Below, one piece after another: positions 4,711 to 36,014 of a stretch of DNA of 36,252 bases; positions within the stretch are counted from its first letter, which is position 1, and each line of letters begins with the position of its first letter. The notes beneath the pieces are model-generated. The model searched no databases and had not been told where the DNA came from. It saw only the letters and a program-made list of their open reading frames with translations. The position numbers and the translations under genes are program-made. Source of the stretch: Methanomassiliicoccales archaeon (GTDB taxonomy: Archaea > Thermoplasmatota > Thermoplasmata > SG8-5); contig JAUWNU010000010.1 in NCBI GenBank assembly GCA_030612505.1, forward strand, positions 1 to 36,252, written 5' to 3'.

Positions 4711-6420
4711 GTGGCCGGGATGGATAAATGTCCTGTTTGCGGAAGCAAAATAGGCGAAGGCGCAGAAGCTTGCAGTGTTTGTGGAACAGCATTTGATGAG
4801 ATTCCGTCAAAATGTCCTTTATGTGATGCTGAAGTGGATGAATCAGTTACAGAATGTCCTAAATGTGGGGCTGAAATGAATGAAAGCCAAAAATCGGTAC
4901 CAGACACAGACATTGATGAGGTCGAGATTGCTGAAATGCCAAGTGAGGAAGACAAGGAAACTGCCGAACTCATAGCAACCGATGTTTTTGTAGATGTTGA
5001 GCTGGAGGAGCTTGTGAAACTATCTGATGTTGGTCCTCTGAAGGCAAAAATACTCTATGATGCTGGATTCAAAGACCTTCGAACGCTCAAGCGGGCCAGT
5101 GTTGTGGAATTGATGAATATCCGCGGCATTGGAAGAAAAGCTGCTGGCGAGATCAAGACAGCTCTTAGGGAATCAAGTCTCGAGGAAATTAGAGAGACAG
5201 AAATAACCAAGGAAACTGTGGAATCTGAATACCAGTGCCCGCTTTGCGGGACCATTGTGAGTGCATATGAAACCTCATGTTATGAATGCGGTTGCATTTT
5301 CGAACCTGGTGGTGTTGATGATGAGGATTCTGATAGACTGGCACTTTCATATTATGATAGCAAACTTTTGCGAAGTCCTGATAACAAGGACTTATGGTAT
5401 GCCAGAGGAGCTACATTGGTCAAGATTGAAGAATATGAACAAGCATTGAATTCATTTAACCGGGCACTGGAGCTGGACAAGACATTTCAGGCAGCCTGGA
5501 TGTCCAAGGCAGAGGTATACAATAAGCTTGGCGACTCAACTAAGGCTGCGGAATGTTATAGTCACATTATTACAAGCACTTCTGCTGGATTAGCAATTGG
5601 CGGTGAAGATGAGGATGATGAGTTTGAGGATGAACTGAAATTGGATAAGCCAGCTGAAGAACATGAGCCAGAACCAGCAGAGGAACTGGAAGAAGAGGAA
5701 CCAGATTCGGTTGAGGAAGAGATTATTGTTGAAGAGCCGAAACCAGAACCAGAGGATTCACCAGAAGATGAATTGCCAGAACTTACAACTCAGCCTGAAG
5801 TCCCAGACACTGAGGCCGAGTTGGTTGAAGAGCCAGTGATTGAACAAGATACGGAAATTGTTGAAGAACCAGAGCCAGAACCAATTGAAGAGCCGGAGCC
5901 AGAGCCTGAGATTGATGGCCCCGAAGTAACGAAGCCCCACTCATTTGATGAAATATCTCCCAGCGGTATTAGTATTGATATGGATTATACCAGACCGGAA
6001 CCTGAGAAGCCGGACCTGGAAAACATGACTGATACTGAGATGAAAAAGTATCTTTCCAAGAGAGCTTCACATGTTAAGCCATACCTGGCACTGGCAAGAG
6101 CACTTGATGTAGATATCAATCACGCTAAACGATTAATTGCAAAGGCTGTTGCAGAGAGCAAGAAAGGTAATTTGAAAATAGCAATCGAGATAATCAATGA
6201 GGGTATTGAGTTTGCTGAAACCGGATTCCACAAAAAGGTGGCTGAGGACATAGATAGCATGGCCATCCTCATAAGGGACCTGAAAATGACTGGCATTGAT
6301 GTGTCTGGTGCAGTTGAACTTATCACAGAAACAAAAAAGATGCTTGAGGATGGTAAAATCATCGAGGCTGTGGAGAGTCTGCAAAAGTGCCTGGAACATG
6401 TTGAATCTATTACGACGTAA
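4711..6420 (+). CDS. Zinc-ribbon / helix-hairpin-helix / TPR multidomain protein with acidic Pro-Glu linker
   Basis: Repeated CPxCG zinc-ribbon motifs, HhH segment (LSDVGPLKAKILYDAGFKDLRTLKRASVVELMNIRGIGRKAAGEIK), TPR-like helices, EPEPEP-rich linker; GTG 4711 or ATG 4720 start. Confidence 0.8.
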   Translation: MAGMDKCPVCGSKIGEGAEACSVCGTAFDEIPSKCPLCDAEVDESVTECPKCGAEMNESQKSVPDTDIDEVEIAEMPSEEDKETAELIATDVFVDVELEELVKLSDVGPLKAKILYDAGFKDLRTLKRASVVELMNIRGIGRKAAGEIKTALRESSLEEIRETEITKETVESEYQCPLCGTIVSAYETSCYECGCIFEPGGVDDEDSDRLALSYYDSKLLRSPDNKDLWYARGATLVKIEEYEQALNSFNRALELDKTFQAAWMSKAEVYNKLGDSTKAAECYSHIITSTSAGLAIGGEDEDDEFEDELKLDKPAEEHEPEPAEELEEEEPDSVEEEIIVEEPKPEPEDSPEDELPELTTQPEVPDTEAELVEEPVIEQDTEIVEEPEPEPIEEPEPEPEIDGPEVTKPHSFDEISPSGISIDMDYTRPEPEKPDLENMTDTEMKKYLSKRASHVKPYLALARALDVDINHAKRLIAKAVAESKKGNLKIAIEIINEGIEFAETGFHKKVAEDIDSMAILIRDLKMTGIDVSGAVELITETKKMLEDGKIIEAVESLQKCLEHVESITT

Positions 6421-28988: not shown

Positions 28989-29489
28989 CTATTCCCATTC
29001 TTCAATTATTTTCTGTATCATACCTTGTGGTGAATCTTTTAGGATGCTCTTATCTGAAAAGACATAAACCTCTTTAATAGTTACATACTTGTTGAAGTTA
29101 GATTTTATCATATTGATGTGCTCATCGAATTCTTCCACGTCTCTAAAACCACATACAATCAAATGTGTGACCGTACTTCTTGGTATACTGTAAACTCTCA
29201 TTATATTTGGCATCGAAAGAAGTTCCTCCAGCGATTTTTTCTCTCTGCTATTGGTGAATTCTAACAGATTTACCTTGACGAAAACAATGGCAAAAGTTGT
29301 TATGCCCAGCTTCCCATAATCTATCTCCGCCCTGTAACCGGTTATGATGCCCTTTTCCTCGAGATTTTTCCTGATCTTCCCGACTCCAGCAGGACTTATT
29401 TTCAATTCAGATGCGATTTTCACATCTGATATGTCCCCATCATCCAGAATGGATTTCAAAAACTTTCGTTCGTTCTTGGACAGCTTCAT
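28989..29489 (-). CDS. Lrp/AsnC-like transcriptional regulator
   Basis: N-terminal HTH LSKNERKFLKSILDDGDISDVKIASELKISPAGVGKIRKNLEEKGIITGYRAEIDYGKLGI. Confidence 0.85.
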   Translation of the reverse strand: MKLSKNERKFLKSILDDGDISDVKIASELKISPAGVGKIRKNLEEKGIITGYRAEIDYGKLGITTFAIVFVKVNLLEFTNSREKKSLEELLSMPNIMRVYSIPRSTVTHLIVCGFRDVEEFDEHINMIKSNFNKYVTIKEVYVFSDKSILKDSPQGMIQKIIEEWE

Positions 29490-29934: not shown

Positions 29935-29946
29935 GGTATATATACC
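29935..29946. promoter_or_regulatory. Palindromic TATA-like motif upstream of the PHA operon
   Basis: GGTATATATACC, perfect 12-nt palindrome ~120 nt before the first gene start. Confidence 0.35.
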
Positions 29947-30068
29947 AAAAGTGACAATGATGGAAACCAACCTTCAGTATTGAGGGCGGGGGAGTTCCCA
30001 ACATAATTGGGTTTTCTCTTTGCGGCCTCACAAAAGTAAGAAGGGGGTAGCGAAGGAGGAAAGAAACC

Positions 30069-31016
30069 ATGAAGCGAAAGGAAATGAAGCAGGAACAAAA
30101 GAGCGGAACAAGAGAAAAGAAAATTTCAGATGGGGTAATCGGAGGCAATGAGATATATGAAGGACTCTTCGATTCCTTGAACGATTTCACAGACAAAATG
30201 GGAGATAAAATATCCCATAATGTCAAGGGTAACCTGAGCGAATCCCAGAAATTATATCAAACCTGGGTCGATTTTTCGACCAAGATGGGAGAGAAGATGA
30301 CAAGTGACCTTACAAAAGGTGACATGGGGCATCAGGAACTATACAATGTCTGGAAGAACTACTCTAACAAGTTCGGGAACAGGCTGACAAAAGTAGTGAA
30401 CGAGAGCAGCGTCGACTATAACAAGTTGTACGATACCTGGCAGAGCACCCTGCCCAATATAGGGAAACAAATAGGCATTAGCATGGAGGATGAGGATGCG
30501 GCAGAGGGCCTTTACACTGCCTGGATGGATTTCTCGGACAGAATGGGAGCACATCTCGAGGAGACCTTTACGACGAACGGCAAGGAATATAACGAGTTAT
30601 ACGGCACATGGACGGATTTCTCGAATAAGATGACAGAGGGCTTTTCAAGAATGCTCGAAGAGGATGGGCATAATTATGAGGAACTCTACAAAACATGGGT
30701 GAGTTTCTCAACGAACATAGGAGGGGGCCTTGAGAAGTTCATGAAGGAATATGAAGGTGACTACATAACTCTTCACGATGATTGGGTAGAGAAGGCGAGG
30801 AAAATCAATGAGAGGTTCGCAAAGGTCATGACAGAGGCAGGCACGGACTACGAGGACCTATACAAAAAACTCTTCGAAAGAACCGCAACGCTGCAAAGAA
30901 GCATGGGAATGTACCCATTCATGACATCACAGACCACACCAAAGGAGATAGGGGAACTCAAGTCGCGGATCAATGAACTGGAAAAGAGGATCGAAACCCT
31001 GAGCACAAAGGCCTAG
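30069..31016 (+). CDS. Phasin/PhaE-like protein built of ~29-aa tandem repeats
   Basis: About 8 repeats of LYxTWxDFSxKMGxx... plus C-terminal coiled coil EIGELKSRINELEKRIETL; strong SD aaggagg upstream. Confidence 0.7.
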   Translation: MKRKEMKQEQKSGTREKKISDGVIGGNEIYEGLFDSLNDFTDKMGDKISHNVKGNLSESQKLYQTWVDFSTKMGEKMTSDLTKGDMGHQELYNVWKNYSNKFGNRLTKVVNESSVDYNKLYDTWQSTLPNIGKQIGISMEDEDAAEGLYTAWMDFSDRMGAHLEETFTTNGKEYNELYGTWTDFSNKMTEGFSRMLEEDGHNYEELYKTWVSFSTNIGGGLEKFMKEYEGDYITLHDDWVEKARKINERFAKVMTEAGTDYEDLYKKLFERTATLQRSMGMYPFMTSQTTPKEIGELKSRINELEKRIETLSTKA

Positions 31017-31029
31017 TGTATCTGTCTGT

Positions 31030-31055
31030 TTGACCAAGGTAACGCTCTTGGTCAA
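31030..31055 (+). promoter_or_regulatory. Intra-operon hairpin (possible attenuator or processing site)
   Basis: TTGACCAAG-gtaacgct-CTTGGTCAA, perfect 9-bp stem between the first and second operon genes. Confidence 0.45.
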
Positions 31056-31136
31056 TTCACATCTTCATGGGAAAAGCCATGCAGACATAGATACTCGGTA
31101 CATTAAGTTAAAAGGGGTGAGAAAATCACAGAGAAA

Positions 31137-31880
31137 TTGATACTCAATGGAAGGAAGGCCTTGGTCACTGGCGCGTCGAGAGGTATTGGGAGAGCCATTG
31201 CCATAGCACTTGCCGAGGCCGGAGCAGATGTGGCGATCAATTACCGTTCGGGTGAGGAGAAAGCGGAGGAGGTCGCTAGATACATCGACGATCTCGGTGT
31301 GGATGTCTGGGTTTATCCTGCTGACGTAAGCGACATGGAGCAGGCCAGACAGATGAGGGAACAGATATCCAAGTACTTCGGTAGAGTCGATATACTGGTG
31401 AACAATGCCGGAATCAATATCGATAAATTCTTCACGAAGATGGACGAGGAGTCATGGAACAAGGTGATTTCCGTTAACCTCAATGGCGTGTTCAACTGTA
31501 CCAGTGTATTCATCGATGACCTCATTGAATCGGGGCATGGGAGGATAATAAACATCACGTCGATAGTGGGCCAGATGGGCAATATAGGCCAAGTTAACTA
31601 TGCCGCTTCCAAGGCTGGCGTCATCGGGATGACAAAGGCGTTGGCAAAGGAATTGGCAAGGAATAATGTGACGGTCAATGCCATCGCCCCGGGTTTCATA
31701 GAGACAGATATGGTCGCAGGTATACCCGAGAAGGTCAAGGAGAAGATAATCGCTCAGATACCCTTGCGGCGGTTTGGAAAGCCTGAGGAGGTTGCCAGGG
31801 CGGTACTATATCTCGCATCAGACCATGCAGATTATATCACGGGTCATGTGTTGAATGTCAATGGAGGCATGTATATATAG
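31137..31880 (+). CDS. SDR-family 3-oxoacyl-ACP/acetoacetyl-CoA reductase (FabG/PhaB-like)
   Basis: ALVTGASRGIGRAIA, NNAGINIDKFF, NYAASKAGVIGMTKALAKELA, APGFIETDM; probable TTG start. Confidence 0.92.
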   Translation: MILNGRKALVTGASRGIGRAIAIALAEAGADVAINYRSGEEKAEEVARYIDDLGVDVWVYPADVSDMEQARQMREQISKYFGRVDILVNNAGINIDKFFTKMDEESWNKVISVNLNGVFNCTSVFIDDLIESGHGRIINITSIVGQMGNIGQVNYAASKAGVIGMTKALAKELARNNVTVNAIAPGFIETDMVAGIPEKVKEKIIAQIPLRRFGKPEEVARAVLYLASDHADYITGHVLNVNGGMYI

Positions 31881-31935
31881 ATTATATCATAAAAATGAAT
31901 ATAACTAATATAAATGAAAATATGGAGGAAATAAA

Positions 31936-33108
31936 ATGCAAAAAAAAGAGAATAACAAAGAGGACATGATGCTTCTTTCGAAGAAGGGGCTGACTGCCAT
32001 TGCCGAGGAGCATGGGATAGTGGTGGACGATAAATGGACCAAATCAATGATTTCCGATGCTATCCTGGCATATGAAAGAAAGAATGAAAAAACAGAAGAT
32101 GAAACCGTGAAAGGAAATAAAAATGAGGGTGTAAAAATGCCAAGGAAACAGAAAAAGGAGCAGAGGTCAAGGGCTAGTAAAACCCAGACTGGAAAGAGAG
32201 AAGAGAACGATAATGTGTATAAGGATCTTTTTGAGACCTGGGACAACTTCTCGAATGAAATGGGTACGGAGATGGCTAACATTATTAAGGAAAGCCAGAC
32301 CAATTACAGTGTATTCACCAATCAGTGGATGCGGTTCTATGAGGACACCATGGCGAAATCCGTCCAGACCGAGCCGGTCGCAGATGTTCAAAAGGTGACC
32401 AATGTTTGGAATAATTACAGCGATAAGCTGATGAACAGGATGGAGAACTTGGTCACTGGTAGTAACAAATCATTCACGTCAATGGAGAATACTTGGAATG
32501 AGTATGTATCGAAGATAGGCAAGGAATTGCTCAAGGCGGCAAACGGAGATGGCGATGCCATGGAACCTAACGAGCTTCACAGGATGTGGGTCGAGTTTTC
32601 GGCTCAGGAGATGCAGGACTTATTCAAGTCGATGAACCCAACAACTGCGGACGCACAGGAGATACTTGGCATCTGGCATGAGCTCAATACCAATATGCAG
32701 GAGGTCATGAATGGCACCGTGAAGTCTAATCAGGCAGTGTACGAGGAACTTAACAAGAGGTGGACTGAATCCTCCGCTCAAATGAATAAGGAACTCACCA
32801 CATTTGTAGATGGATATATCAACGGATTTGCCAGACTCCAGGATACCTGGTCTGGCTCAGCATCGAATATGGGCGAACACTTTATGGGCATGATGAAGGC
32901 CGATGGTTTCAATATCGAGAGGATGTATGCTGATTACTTTGAGAGAACCAACGAATTCTTCAGGATGTTCAATCACCCATTCTTTGGAATGGGCAGAGGG
33001 TCCGATGACGAATTCAAAGAGATTAAGAGAAAGGTAGAGGAGATGGAGAGAAAGCTCGAGGAGATAGAATCCAATGAGCAGGTCTTGAGCAATAATGGAG
33101 GAATATAG
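31936..33108 (+). CDS. Phasin/PhaE-like repeat protein with putative N-terminal SAP/Rho_N-like DNA-binding segment
   Basis: LLSKKGLTAIAEEHGIVVDDKWTKSMISDAILAYE, then W..FS..M-type helical repeats, and C-terminal coiled coil EFKEIKRKVEEMERKLEEIES. Confidence 0.65.
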   Translation: MQKKENNKEDMMLLSKKGLTAIAEEHGIVVDDKWTKSMISDAILAYERKNEKTEDETVKGNKNEGVKMPRKQKKEQRSRASKTQTGKREENDNVYKDLFETWDNFSNEMGTEMANIIKESQTNYSVFTNQWMRFYEDTMAKSVQTEPVADVQKVTNVWNNYSDKLMNRMENLVTGSNKSFTSMENTWNEYVSKIGKELLKAANGDGDAMEPNELHRMWVEFSAQEMQDLFKSMNPTTADAQEILGIWHELNTNMQEVMNGTVKSNQAVYEELNKRWTESSAQMNKELTTFVDGYINGFARLQDTWSGSASNMGEHFMGMMKADGFNIERMYADYFERTNEFFRMFNHPFFGMGRGSDDEFKEIKRKVEEMERKLEEIESNEQVLSNNGGI

Positions 33109-33843
33109 ATGCCAGAAGATGGAGAAGACATAAAGGATATCTACGGTGAGTGGTTCCGATTATCAAATAACATAAGCAGACGATTCCAGAAAATTGCAGA
33201 GGAAGGCACGGTGGGATACGAGGAATTTCTGGGATTATGGTCTGAATACAGTAATACCATGAGCGAAGAGATGAAGCGATGCCTTACGGACGAGGAAAAG
33301 ACAAAAGACCTTGCTAACACCTGGAAGGAGTATACAAAGAGCATGGAGAAACATATTTATTCCTGTATGGAGGGACAAACAGACGTCTATGCTCTCTGGA
33401 TGGACGCGTTTGGCACATGGGCGAACAAAGGGGATGGTGAAGGTGATAATGGGCCAACTTCCCAATATCCTGACCCGATGTCGTTCTGGACACAATATCT
33501 TAAAGGAGCGGAAATGAAAATGCCCGGCGTACCTAATATGGGACCTGATGAGCTATTCACCAAGATGCAGGAGATGCAGGACGAGTGGTCCAAGCAGTAT
33601 TCCTCTGCGGTAAAGGATTTCATGAGAACACCTGCTTTTGCATCGTGGGCGGGCAACATGGTCAATCAGACAATGGACAGCAAGGAACAATTGAACAGCA
33701 TGACCACCGAGTACCTTCAATTCCTGGGCTTGCCCACCCAGAGTGACCTTGACAGCATCAGGCTCAGGTTCCATGAGATGGACAAGAAACTAACTGAACT
33801 ATGCAACATGAAAGAGGAACGGCAAAGCCCCGAGAAATCATAG
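33109..33843 (+). CDS. phaE: PhaE-like subunit of class III-type PHA synthase
   Basis: Immediately upstream of the synthase; C-terminus TEYLQFLGLPTQSDLDSIRLRFHEMDKKLTEL resembles PhaE C-termini; N-terminal part shares W..(Y/F)S..M repeats. Confidence 0.7.
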   Translation: MPEDGEDIKDIYGEWFRLSNNISRRFQKIAEEGTVGYEEFLGLWSEYSNTMSEEMKRCLTDEEKTKDLANTWKEYTKSMEKHIYSCMEGQTDVYALWMDAFGTWANKGDGEGDNGPTSQYPDPMSFWTQYLKGAEMKMPGVPNMGPDELFTKMQEMQDEWSKQYSSAVKDFMRTPAFASWAGNMVNQTMDSKEQLNSMTTEYLQFLGLPTQSDLDSIRLRFHEMDKKLTELCNMKEERQSPEKS

Positions 33844-33854
33844 GTGGTTGACTC

Positions 33855-35150
33855 ATGGATTCAGATAATCATAAGACCAGCACTGATATATTTGCATTTC
33901 AGAGGAGATTGATGGAGGAGACACTGGCGTTCAACAATAAGATGGCAAAGGCCACAGCCATCGCTATGAACCCGCCAGATATAGATCTCAAAGGCACGCC
34001 CCACGATATCGTTTACGAGGAAAATCAGGTGAAGATTCTGCACTACCATCCATTGGTTAAAGATGTGCATCCAGTCCCTCTCGTGCTCATATACGCTCTA
34101 GTAAATAAGCCCTACATTCTTGACATAAAGCCGGACAGGAGCGTGGTCCGTTCCCTGCTGTTGAAGGGGTTCGACGTGTATATGATTGATTGGGGTGAGC
34201 CGGGGCCAGAGGATAAGTACCTGACAGTGAACGATTATGTCAACGGTTATATCGATAGGACAATAGACATGATAAGAAAGCGCACAGATGTACCTCAGGT
34301 TTCCATTCTGGGATACTGCATGGGCGGAACGTTTTCCGCGATGTACACGGCTCTTCATCCCGAGAAGGTCAGGAATTTATTGCTCATGGCCGCGGGGATA
34401 GACTTTGAATCAGATAACGGCCCTCTTCGTTTATGGGCGGACAAGGAATATTTTGATGTGGACAAGGTCGTCGATGGATTTGGAAATGTTCCCGGCGAGT
34501 TCCTCAATATGGGCTTCCTTCTCCTGGATCCCTACAACAATCTGTATGGGAAGTACATTAAGATACTGGACAGTATAGATAACGATGATGTCATGGACCT
34601 TTTCCTCCGGATGGAAAGGTGGATCAATGATGGTGTGGCCGTCGCGGGCGAGACCTACAGGGAATTCATAAAAAATGGCTATCAGAACAATCTCCTGATC
34701 AAGAATGAATGGGTGCTGAATGGGCAAAAGGTCAATCTCTCCAAGATAGACATGCCTGTATGTGTCATCGTCGCGGATTATGACACGTTGGTTCCCAAGG
34801 AATCCACCCTTCCCTTTGTGGATGTCATATCGAGCAAGGATAAAGTGATCATGAGCTTTCCAAAGGGCCATATCGGACTCTCGGTCAGCAGCGGTGCGCA
34901 CAGGCATTTGTGGCCGAAAGTGGCGGAATGGCTGGCAGAAAGGTCTGGCGATGAAAAAGGGAAAAGGAAGAAACCGGAACACGGGAACCTCGATTCGATA
35001 AAAGGCATCGGTCCTTCTTACGTCAAAAGGTTGGGAAAGGCAGGCGTAAATAACCTGGACGAACTCATGACAGCAGACATGGACAAACTTTCATCGGCAA
35101 CCGGCATACCGAAAAAAACCCTGAACAAGTGGATCGATACTATCAAATAA
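33855..35150 (+). CDS. phaC: Class III-like polyhydroxyalkanoate synthase with C-terminal helix-hairpin-helix domain
   Basis: Lipase-like box GYCMGG (catalytic Cys), VADYDTLVPKE (Asp), PKGHIGLSV (His); C-terminal LDSIKGIGPSYVKRLGKAGVNNLDELMTADMDKLSSATGIPKKTLNKWIDTI. Confidence 0.92.
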   Translation: MDSDNHKTSTDIFAFQRRLMEETLAFNNKMAKATAIAMNPPDIDLKGTPHDIVYEENQVKILHYHPLVKDVHPVPLVLIYALVNKPYILDIKPDRSVVRSLLLKGFDVYMIDWGEPGPEDKYLTVNDYVNGYIDRTIDMIRKRTDVPQVSILGYCMGGTFSAMYTALHPEKVRNLLLMAAGIDFESDNGPLRLWADKEYFDVDKVVDGFGNVPGEFLNMGFLLLDPYNNLYGKYIKILDSIDNDDVMDLFLRMERWINDGVAVAGETYREFIKNGYQNNLLIKNEWVLNGQKVNLSKIDMPVCVIVADYDTLVPKESTLPFVDVISSKDKVIMSFPKGHIGLSVSSGAHRHLWPKVAEWLAERSGDEKGKRKKPEHGNLDSIKGIGPSYVKRLGKAGVNNLDELMTADMDKLSSATGIPKKTLNKWIDTIK

Positions 35151-35210
35151 TCTGTGTAGGTACATGAAGTTAAATACCCTTTGGCGTATATCCTCCACGT
35201 TACCGTAGAA

Positions 35211-36014
35211 ATGGTGTTCCCCATGCAGCAGCCAGAGTTGAATAATCTGCTCCTTGACATAGAAAATCACATTGCCACAGTTACTTTGAACAGGCCACAG
35301 TTCTTGAACGTCTTCAATGTCGAGACCCTGCATGAACTTGATGAATTGTTGGACTACTTGAATGACCATTCCGGCGTGAAGGTGATGGTGCTCAGGAGTA
35401 ATTCCAAGAAGGTCTTCACGGCAGGCGCTGATGTAAAAAAAATGAGTGAGCAGGATTCTTCCGGTGCTAGGAGATTTGCGGAACTCGGTCACAGAATAGC
35501 AAGAAAACTGGAAACCCTGAACCAACCGGTGATTGTTGCCCTGAACGGATACGTGCTCGGGGGCGGTGTGGAATTCTCCTGCGCCTGTGATATCAGGATA
35601 GCCTCGGAGGACGCTGTATTTTCACAACCGGAGATAGACATTGGCATAATCCCCGGTTGGGGCGGTACACAGCGGCTGATAAGGATTGTCGGCCCGGGCA
35701 AGGCGAAAGAGCTGATATACACCGGGCAGCGGATAGGTGCCCATGAGGCACTCGATATCGGTTTGGTGGACCATGTAGTACCTAATGACGAGCTGGAGAA
35801 TGCGGCGAATGCATTGGCAAGCATAATCGCACGCAAGAGCAGGGTGGCCTTGATAGCCGCGAAAAAGGCAATAAATAAGACCTTCGACACCAATCTGGAG
35901 AAAGGATTGGAGTATGAAATCCAGATATGGGCGGAGTTGTTCGACACCTATGACCAGAAGGAAGGAATGAACGCTTTCCTTGAAAAGAGGGAACCTAAAT
36001 TCGAGGATAAGTGA
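35211..36014 (+). CDS. Enoyl-CoA hydratase/crotonase family protein
   Basis: VTLNRPQFLNVFN, FTAGADVKKM, ALNGYVLGGGVEFSCACDIRIASEDAVFSQPEIDIGIIPGWGGTQRL; start uncertain (35211 or 35223). Confidence 0.92.
   Translation: MVFPMQQPELNNLLLDIENHIATVTLNRPQFLNVFNVETLHELDELLDYLNDHSGVKVMVLRSNSKKVFTAGADVKKMSEQDSSGARRFAELGHRIARKLETLNQPVIVALNGYVLGGGVEFSCACDIRIASEDAVFSQPEIDIGIIPGWGGTQRLIRIVGPGKAKELIYTGQRIGAHEALDIGLVDHVVPNDELENAANALASIIARKSRVALIAAKKAINKTFDTNLEKGLEYEIQIWAELFDTYDQKEGMNAFLEKREPKFEDK

Follow-up and report, generated by a model that had tools for sequence, protein, structure and literature searches.

The 36,252-nt stretch of DNA analysed here (the window; contig JAUWNU010000010.1 of assembly GCA_030612505.1, our contig C109) comes from an uncultured archaeon catalogued as Methanomassiliicoccales archaeon and carries, at positions 30069-36014, six consecutive plus-strand genes that very probably constitute an operon for polyhydroxyalkanoate (PHA) synthesis and granule formation in Thermoplasmata, a confidence that does not extend to the nucleoid tether considered further below. 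All six are open reading frames, and their content, order and strand agree with the original prediction, which had been made from the letters alone. The genes are separated by 120, 55, 0, 11 and 30-72 nt. The features of the locus are as follows.

29935..30068, plus strand: upstream non-coding region, predicted to act as promoter, with a TATA-like stretch at ~29938-29946 and, ahead of the first ATG, a sequence AAGGAGG that resembles a ribosome-binding site (both read by eye); the first coding base of the operon is 30069
30069..31016, plus strand: repA, PhaE-related protein of 315 residues built of 29-residue, Trp-anchored helical repeats, with a C-terminal coiled coil
31137..31880, plus strand: FabG/PhaB-type short-chain dehydrogenase/reductase, 247 residues, TTG start, predicted (R)-specific acetoacetyl-CoA reductase
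31936..33108, plus strand: repB, paralogue of repA, 390 residues, with an extra N-terminal three-helix domain and a basic linker (residues 66-92)
31939-32097, plus strand: three-helix N-terminal domain of repB (residues 2-54)
33109..33843, plus strand: PhaE-like synthase subunit, 244 residues, with N-terminal 29-residue repeats and a PHA_synth_III_E C-terminal part
33855..35150, plus strand: PhaC, class III PHA synthase, 431 residues, triad C155/D310/H339
34989..35147, plus strand: HHH_5 helix-hairpin-helix (HHH) domain at the C-terminus of PhaC (residues 379-431; PF14520)
35181..36014, plus strand: crotonase-family enoyl-CoA hydratase, with a possible true start at the in-frame ATG 35211 or 35223

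The synthase is the best-defined member of the set. PhaC scores 408 bits against the class III model TIGR01836 (curated cut-off 365.3) and stays far under the cut-offs of the class I and class II models, while its best matches in the PDB are solved PHA synthases (top match 9knj, E=1e-27). Its lipase-box-like GxCxGG motif reads GYCMGG (residues 153-158), and the C-D-H residues noticed in the original prediction correspond to C155, D310 and H339, which are invariant across ten relatives. The gene immediately upstream encodes a PF09712-positive subunit, as befits a class III synthase, which is encoded with PhaE. Given the TIGR01836 score, the PDB matches and the invariant triad, PhaC is not the generic alpha/beta hydrolase that would have undone the prediction; its predicted reaction is the polymerisation of 3-hydroxyacyl-CoA. 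Its nearest homologues are PhaCs of other Thermoplasmata (57% identity), followed by those of haloarchaea and Dadabacteria-like bacteria.

Regarding the partner subunit, the profile search gave a divided answer: the protein passes PF09712 (E=4e-12, 46.5 bits, cut-off 25.7), aligning through its C-terminal third with profile positions 229-310 of 311, but reaches only 40.7 bits against NCBI TIGR01834, whose cut-off is 154.95, and hence we call it PhaE-like. Its tail carries the pattern SPxFA...PTRxDxDEI followed by a coiled coil, which is common to haloarchaeal and bacterial PhaE. Upstream of the PF09712 domain, its N-terminal half matches the repeats of repA and repB (E=2e-7), and comparison of a rep family profile with a PhaE family profile gives a match probability of 98%. 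The two rep proteins are themselves homologous over their full common length (27% identity, E=7e-33). In repA, tryptophans at positions 66, 95, 124, 152, 181, 210 and 239 are spaced by 28-29 residues; a 29-residue spacing of this strength was reached by none of 20,000 shuffles of repA and by 6 of 20,000 for repB, which bears out their description as repeat proteins, the periodicity being weaker in PhaE alone (328 of 20,000). An AlphaFold (AF2) model of repB, with a mean pLDDT of 76, shows four helices of ~51-58 residues, each covering about two repeats, and a confidently modelled N-terminal three-helix domain (pLDDT blocks of ~93-95). Fold searches with the repB and PhaE models returned helical bundles only, with no match at E <= 0.001. 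Judged by eye, the N-terminal domain of repB was likened to SAP/Rho_N-like DNA-binding domains, but it has no match in Pfam or the PDB and the idea was set aside. The three proteins had been described as PhaE/phasin-like: all three are indeed related to PhaE by homology and linked to PhaC, but repA and repB belong to no curated phasin family, and we regard them as predicted phasin-like coat proteins of the granule.

The operon is not peculiar to this genome. In a sample of 300 Thermoplasmata genomes it recurs, with variations, in about 25, and the FabG-rep-PhaE-PhaC-ECH (enoyl-CoA hydratase) neighbourhood is kept, in shuffled order, across several families. PhaC was found in 26 of the 300 (one with a broken frame) and a rep protein in 21; both were present in 16, rep only in 5, PhaC only in 10 and neither in 269 (Fisher p=7e-16, with kinship between genomes ignored). 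The genomes with rep only are G202 and four of family f9. In G202, masked sequence adjoins the rep gene, and a PhaC may be hidden in these runs of N. The f9 proteins (L177, L178, L179, L180, L181) are solitary helical proteins of ~370-400 residues with an N-terminal domain of the repB kind. At L047:3545-8150, in a genome of the same order as the host, four rep paralogues and PhaE stand in a row before PhaC, an expanded set of putative coat proteins. In the relative G015 (L173:6072-6449), FabG, rep and PhaE are intact, but the PhaC frame stops once ~80 residues have been matched; the broken stretch contains 100 N, and mutation, masking or assembly error are all possible. In the phylum-wide sample, no rep protein was found outside the window's own genome, and thus none outside the class; in the PhaC neighbourhoods of haloarchaea and bacteria, PhaE itself was the only match to the rep model, and a weak one.

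The host genome is a Thermoplasmata metagenome-assembled genome (MAG) of 2.25 Mb in 168 contigs, estimated to be 85% complete, in keeping with the non-haloarchaeal lineage that had been proposed. Genes for archaeal eRF1/pelota and an archaeal-type ribosomal protein S15 lie on the same contig as the operon. Bacterial contamination was considered and rejected because of these archaeal neighbours and of the presence of the operon in other Thermoplasmata. A divergent Lrp/AsnC-like winged-helix regulator is encoded ~580 bp upstream of the operon (28989-29489, minus strand); it has no match in the pha neighbourhoods of relatives and was dropped as a part of the system.

As to the supply of monomers, the reductase scores 328.5 bits against the FabG model TIGR01830 (cut-off 297.75), higher than against the acetoacetyl-CoA reductase model TIGR01829, which it narrowly passes (303.9 bits, cut-off 302.1), and it does not reach the cut-off of the PhaB equivalog NF042966; its (R)-stereochemistry is a prediction. 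The operon lacks a beta-ketothiolase, as had been observed, but the genome-wide search located one elsewhere: contig C48 holds a compact cluster (L060:2323-5193) in which a thiolase (acetyl-CoA C-acyltransferase; TIGR01930, 446 bits, cut-off 240.55) is joined by a second crotonase and by a 3-hydroxybutyryl-CoA dehydrogenase that scores 453 bits against a cut-off of 408. This cluster is the likely supplier of acetoacetyl-CoA, and the notion of a gap in the pathway was rejected on its account. Another thiolase lies beside a gene for HMG-CoA synthase, which suggests that it probably serves isoprenoid synthesis. The genome also gives three acyl-CoA dehydrogenase matches. The crotonase of the operon matches PF00378 (E=1.3e-69) and remains under the cut-off of the short-chain enoyl-CoA hydratase model NF004475 (314.7 bits against 394). 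Since crotonases normally yield the (S)-isomer, its product is more likely to enter the acetoacetyl-CoA pool than to reach the synthase directly.

A feature overlooked in the original prediction is the end of PhaC, which matches PF14520 with E=4.9e-12 (46.6 bits, cut-off 27). In profile searches, HHH_5 also ends the PhaC of three family-f9 Thermoplasmata, of a haloarchaeon and of a related euryarchaeal MAG, and in the remaining haloarchaeal PhaCs a C-terminal HHH was recognised by sequence. The synthase thus has the C-terminal extension ending in HHH that defines the haloarchaeal subtype. When one origin of HHH was weighed against independent gains on the PhaC tree, a single HHH clade was neither rejected nor established by the approximately unbiased test (p-AU 0.219), and the distribution takes 2 label changes. 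The GIG hairpin is retained in most of these tails (WIG in L044). The domain is absent from the PhaC of two sister-genus genomes (L046, L048) and from bacterial relatives. Among the 22 Thermoplasmata PhaCs that lack HHH, 11 end in a Lys/Arg-rich tail with a net charge of +5 to +13; in the same loci, only 1-2% of open reading frames reach a net charge of at least +8 in their last 25 residues. The C-terminal HHH of the Haloferax mediterranei PhaC was noted in 2025 and likened to Caulobacter PhaH (PMC12028471). In bacteria, PhaH, with an HHH, and the histone-like PhaF and PhaM bind DNA and so position granules on the nucleoid (PMC13052382). By analogy with these proteins, a nucleoid tether borne by the synthase itself, through its HHH tail, is plausible; it is the most speculative part of our reading, and we hold it with rather less than even confidence.

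Taken together, the following pathway can be proposed. Acetoacetyl-CoA would be supplied by the thiolase outside the operon or by the conversion of short acyl-CoAs by crotonase and 3-hydroxybutyryl-CoA dehydrogenase. The FabG/PhaB-type enzyme would reduce it to (R)-3-hydroxybutyryl-CoA, which the class III PhaC-PhaE synthase would polymerise on Cys155. The polymer would probably be short-chain and similar to poly(3-hydroxybutyrate). RepA and repB, with their PhaE-related 29-residue repeats, would form a phasin-like granule coat of long amphipathic helices. The HHH domain of PhaC, possibly together with the basic segments of repB, may anchor the nascent granule to the nucleoid, and granules would thereby be distributed and segregated. 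A broader reading, which we advance tentatively, joins two propositions: that the rep proteins are a Thermoplasmata-specific coat family expanded from PhaE, and that in archaea granules are tethered to the chromosome by the PhaC tails, for which Thermoplasmata would have two interchangeable DNA-binding solutions, the HHH that haloarchaeal PhaCs also carry and a Lys/Arg-rich tail of histone-like character.

Several observations weigh against parts of this proposal, and the TIGR01834 shortfall of the PhaE-like protein is one of them. For the tails, a serious contender, which we place somewhat short of even, is that the operon does make PHA but its HHH domain, like the basic tails, serves for protein interaction or folding (e.g., for contacts with PhaE or rep), granules being positioned by chance. 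The zinc-ribbon/TPR protein encoded at 4711-6420 of the window also bears an HHH_5 (residues 99-154); in this host the domain is therefore not confined to DNA enzymes and need not bind DNA. With a median net charge of -36.5, the PhaC tails of haloarchaea are strongly acidic, and L046 and L048, close relatives of the same family, have kept the operon with a PhaC deprived of any tail. Yet the GIG hairpin persists in most tails, other families have basic tails at the equivalent position of PhaC, and bacterial granule proteins with both types of module bind DNA (PMC13052382), all of which speak for a tether.

The coat assignment faces a different objection. RepA and repB pass the cut-off of no Pfam or NCBIfam family and match no named phasin family, and the solitary repB-like proteins of f9 occur away from pha genes, in genomes with no detected PhaC. 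They might accordingly be helical proteins with a structural or scaffolding role, akin to PhaE in their repeat but tied to the operon by nothing more than co-transcription. We consider this unlikely given the tight linkage and co-occurrence of rep with PhaC, the homology of rep to PhaE and the long amphipathic helices, which are a common design of phasins. More improbable still is that PhaC acts on other substrates, making oligomeric 3-hydroxybutyrate or a non-storage polyester, or that the operon is a degenerate relic that yields no polymer. Neither a PhaJ-type MaoC nor a depolymerase of the patatin-like or TIGR01849 type was found in the 85% complete genome; with no such depolymerase the mobilisation of the polymer is unexplained, and the gene may sit in missing contigs or be of a different type. 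The broken PhaC frame of G015 would also fit these readings, but six open genes, an invariant triad and an operon conserved over several families argue for a functional storage system.

Compared with known systems, a close likeness is to the haloarchaeal class III PhaEC of the archaeal subtype (e.g., of Haloferax mediterranei), with which the locus shares the PhaE-PhaC pair and the C-terminal HHH of PhaC. Haloarchaeal PhaCs are ~38-52% identical to the Thermoplasmata operon PhaC. They differ in the linker, long and acidic in haloarchaea whereas short and basic-to-neutral here; moreover, the PhaE-like protein has long 29-residue repeats unlike haloarchaeal PhaE, and two large rep proteins are present where none was detected in haloarchaeal PhaC neighbourhoods. 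Other Thermoplasmata (e.g., CSMAG_1396, L035/L063; bin33, L036/L064; 'Methanomassiliicoccales archaeon' E29_bin30, L041; Ca. Haladaptatiplasma, L049) carry the FabG/rep/PhaE/PhaC/ECH set in shuffled order, with PhaCs up to 57% identical to that of the operon, mostly devoid of HHH (tail absent or Lys/Arg-rich), and with varying numbers of rep genes (four beside PhaC in L047). Bacterial class III pairs (Allochromatium type, Dadabacteria-like relatives) share the PhaC family and the PF09712-type C-terminal motif of PhaE, but those compared have neither a PhaC tail nor adjoining rep proteins. In Caulobacter (PhaH), Pseudomonas (PhaF) and Cupriavidus (PhaM), the HHH or histone-like DNA-binding part belongs to a separate granule-associated protein (PMC13052382), whereas here the putative tether module resides on the synthase. 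Outside haloarchaea, pha genes have been reported in Nitrososphaeria and in 'Ca. Methanoperedens', the latter a non-halophile with PhaC (TIGR01836) and PhaE (PF09712) (PMC8561730); both are non-halophilic archaea like the host, but of different lineages.

The inference of a granule-forming system in an archaeal lineage unrelated to haloarchaea is thus supported by the class III PhaC, the lineage of the host and the homology to PhaE. This kind of system was already known; the present case is set apart by its lineage, by a putative coat family built of repeats and by the variation of the PhaC tail. We found no published account of PHA operons in Thermoplasmata in the open-access literature, and priority is therefore unproven. 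The analysis finds complete PHA operons across a wide range of Thermoplasmata families and brings to light a PhaE-derived family of large putative granule coat proteins built of repeats, which would be of use for granule engineering. It also makes directly testable whether archaeal storage granules are positioned by a DNA-binding tail of the polymerase, since the genetically tractable Haloferax mediterranei has the same HHH domain on its PhaC.

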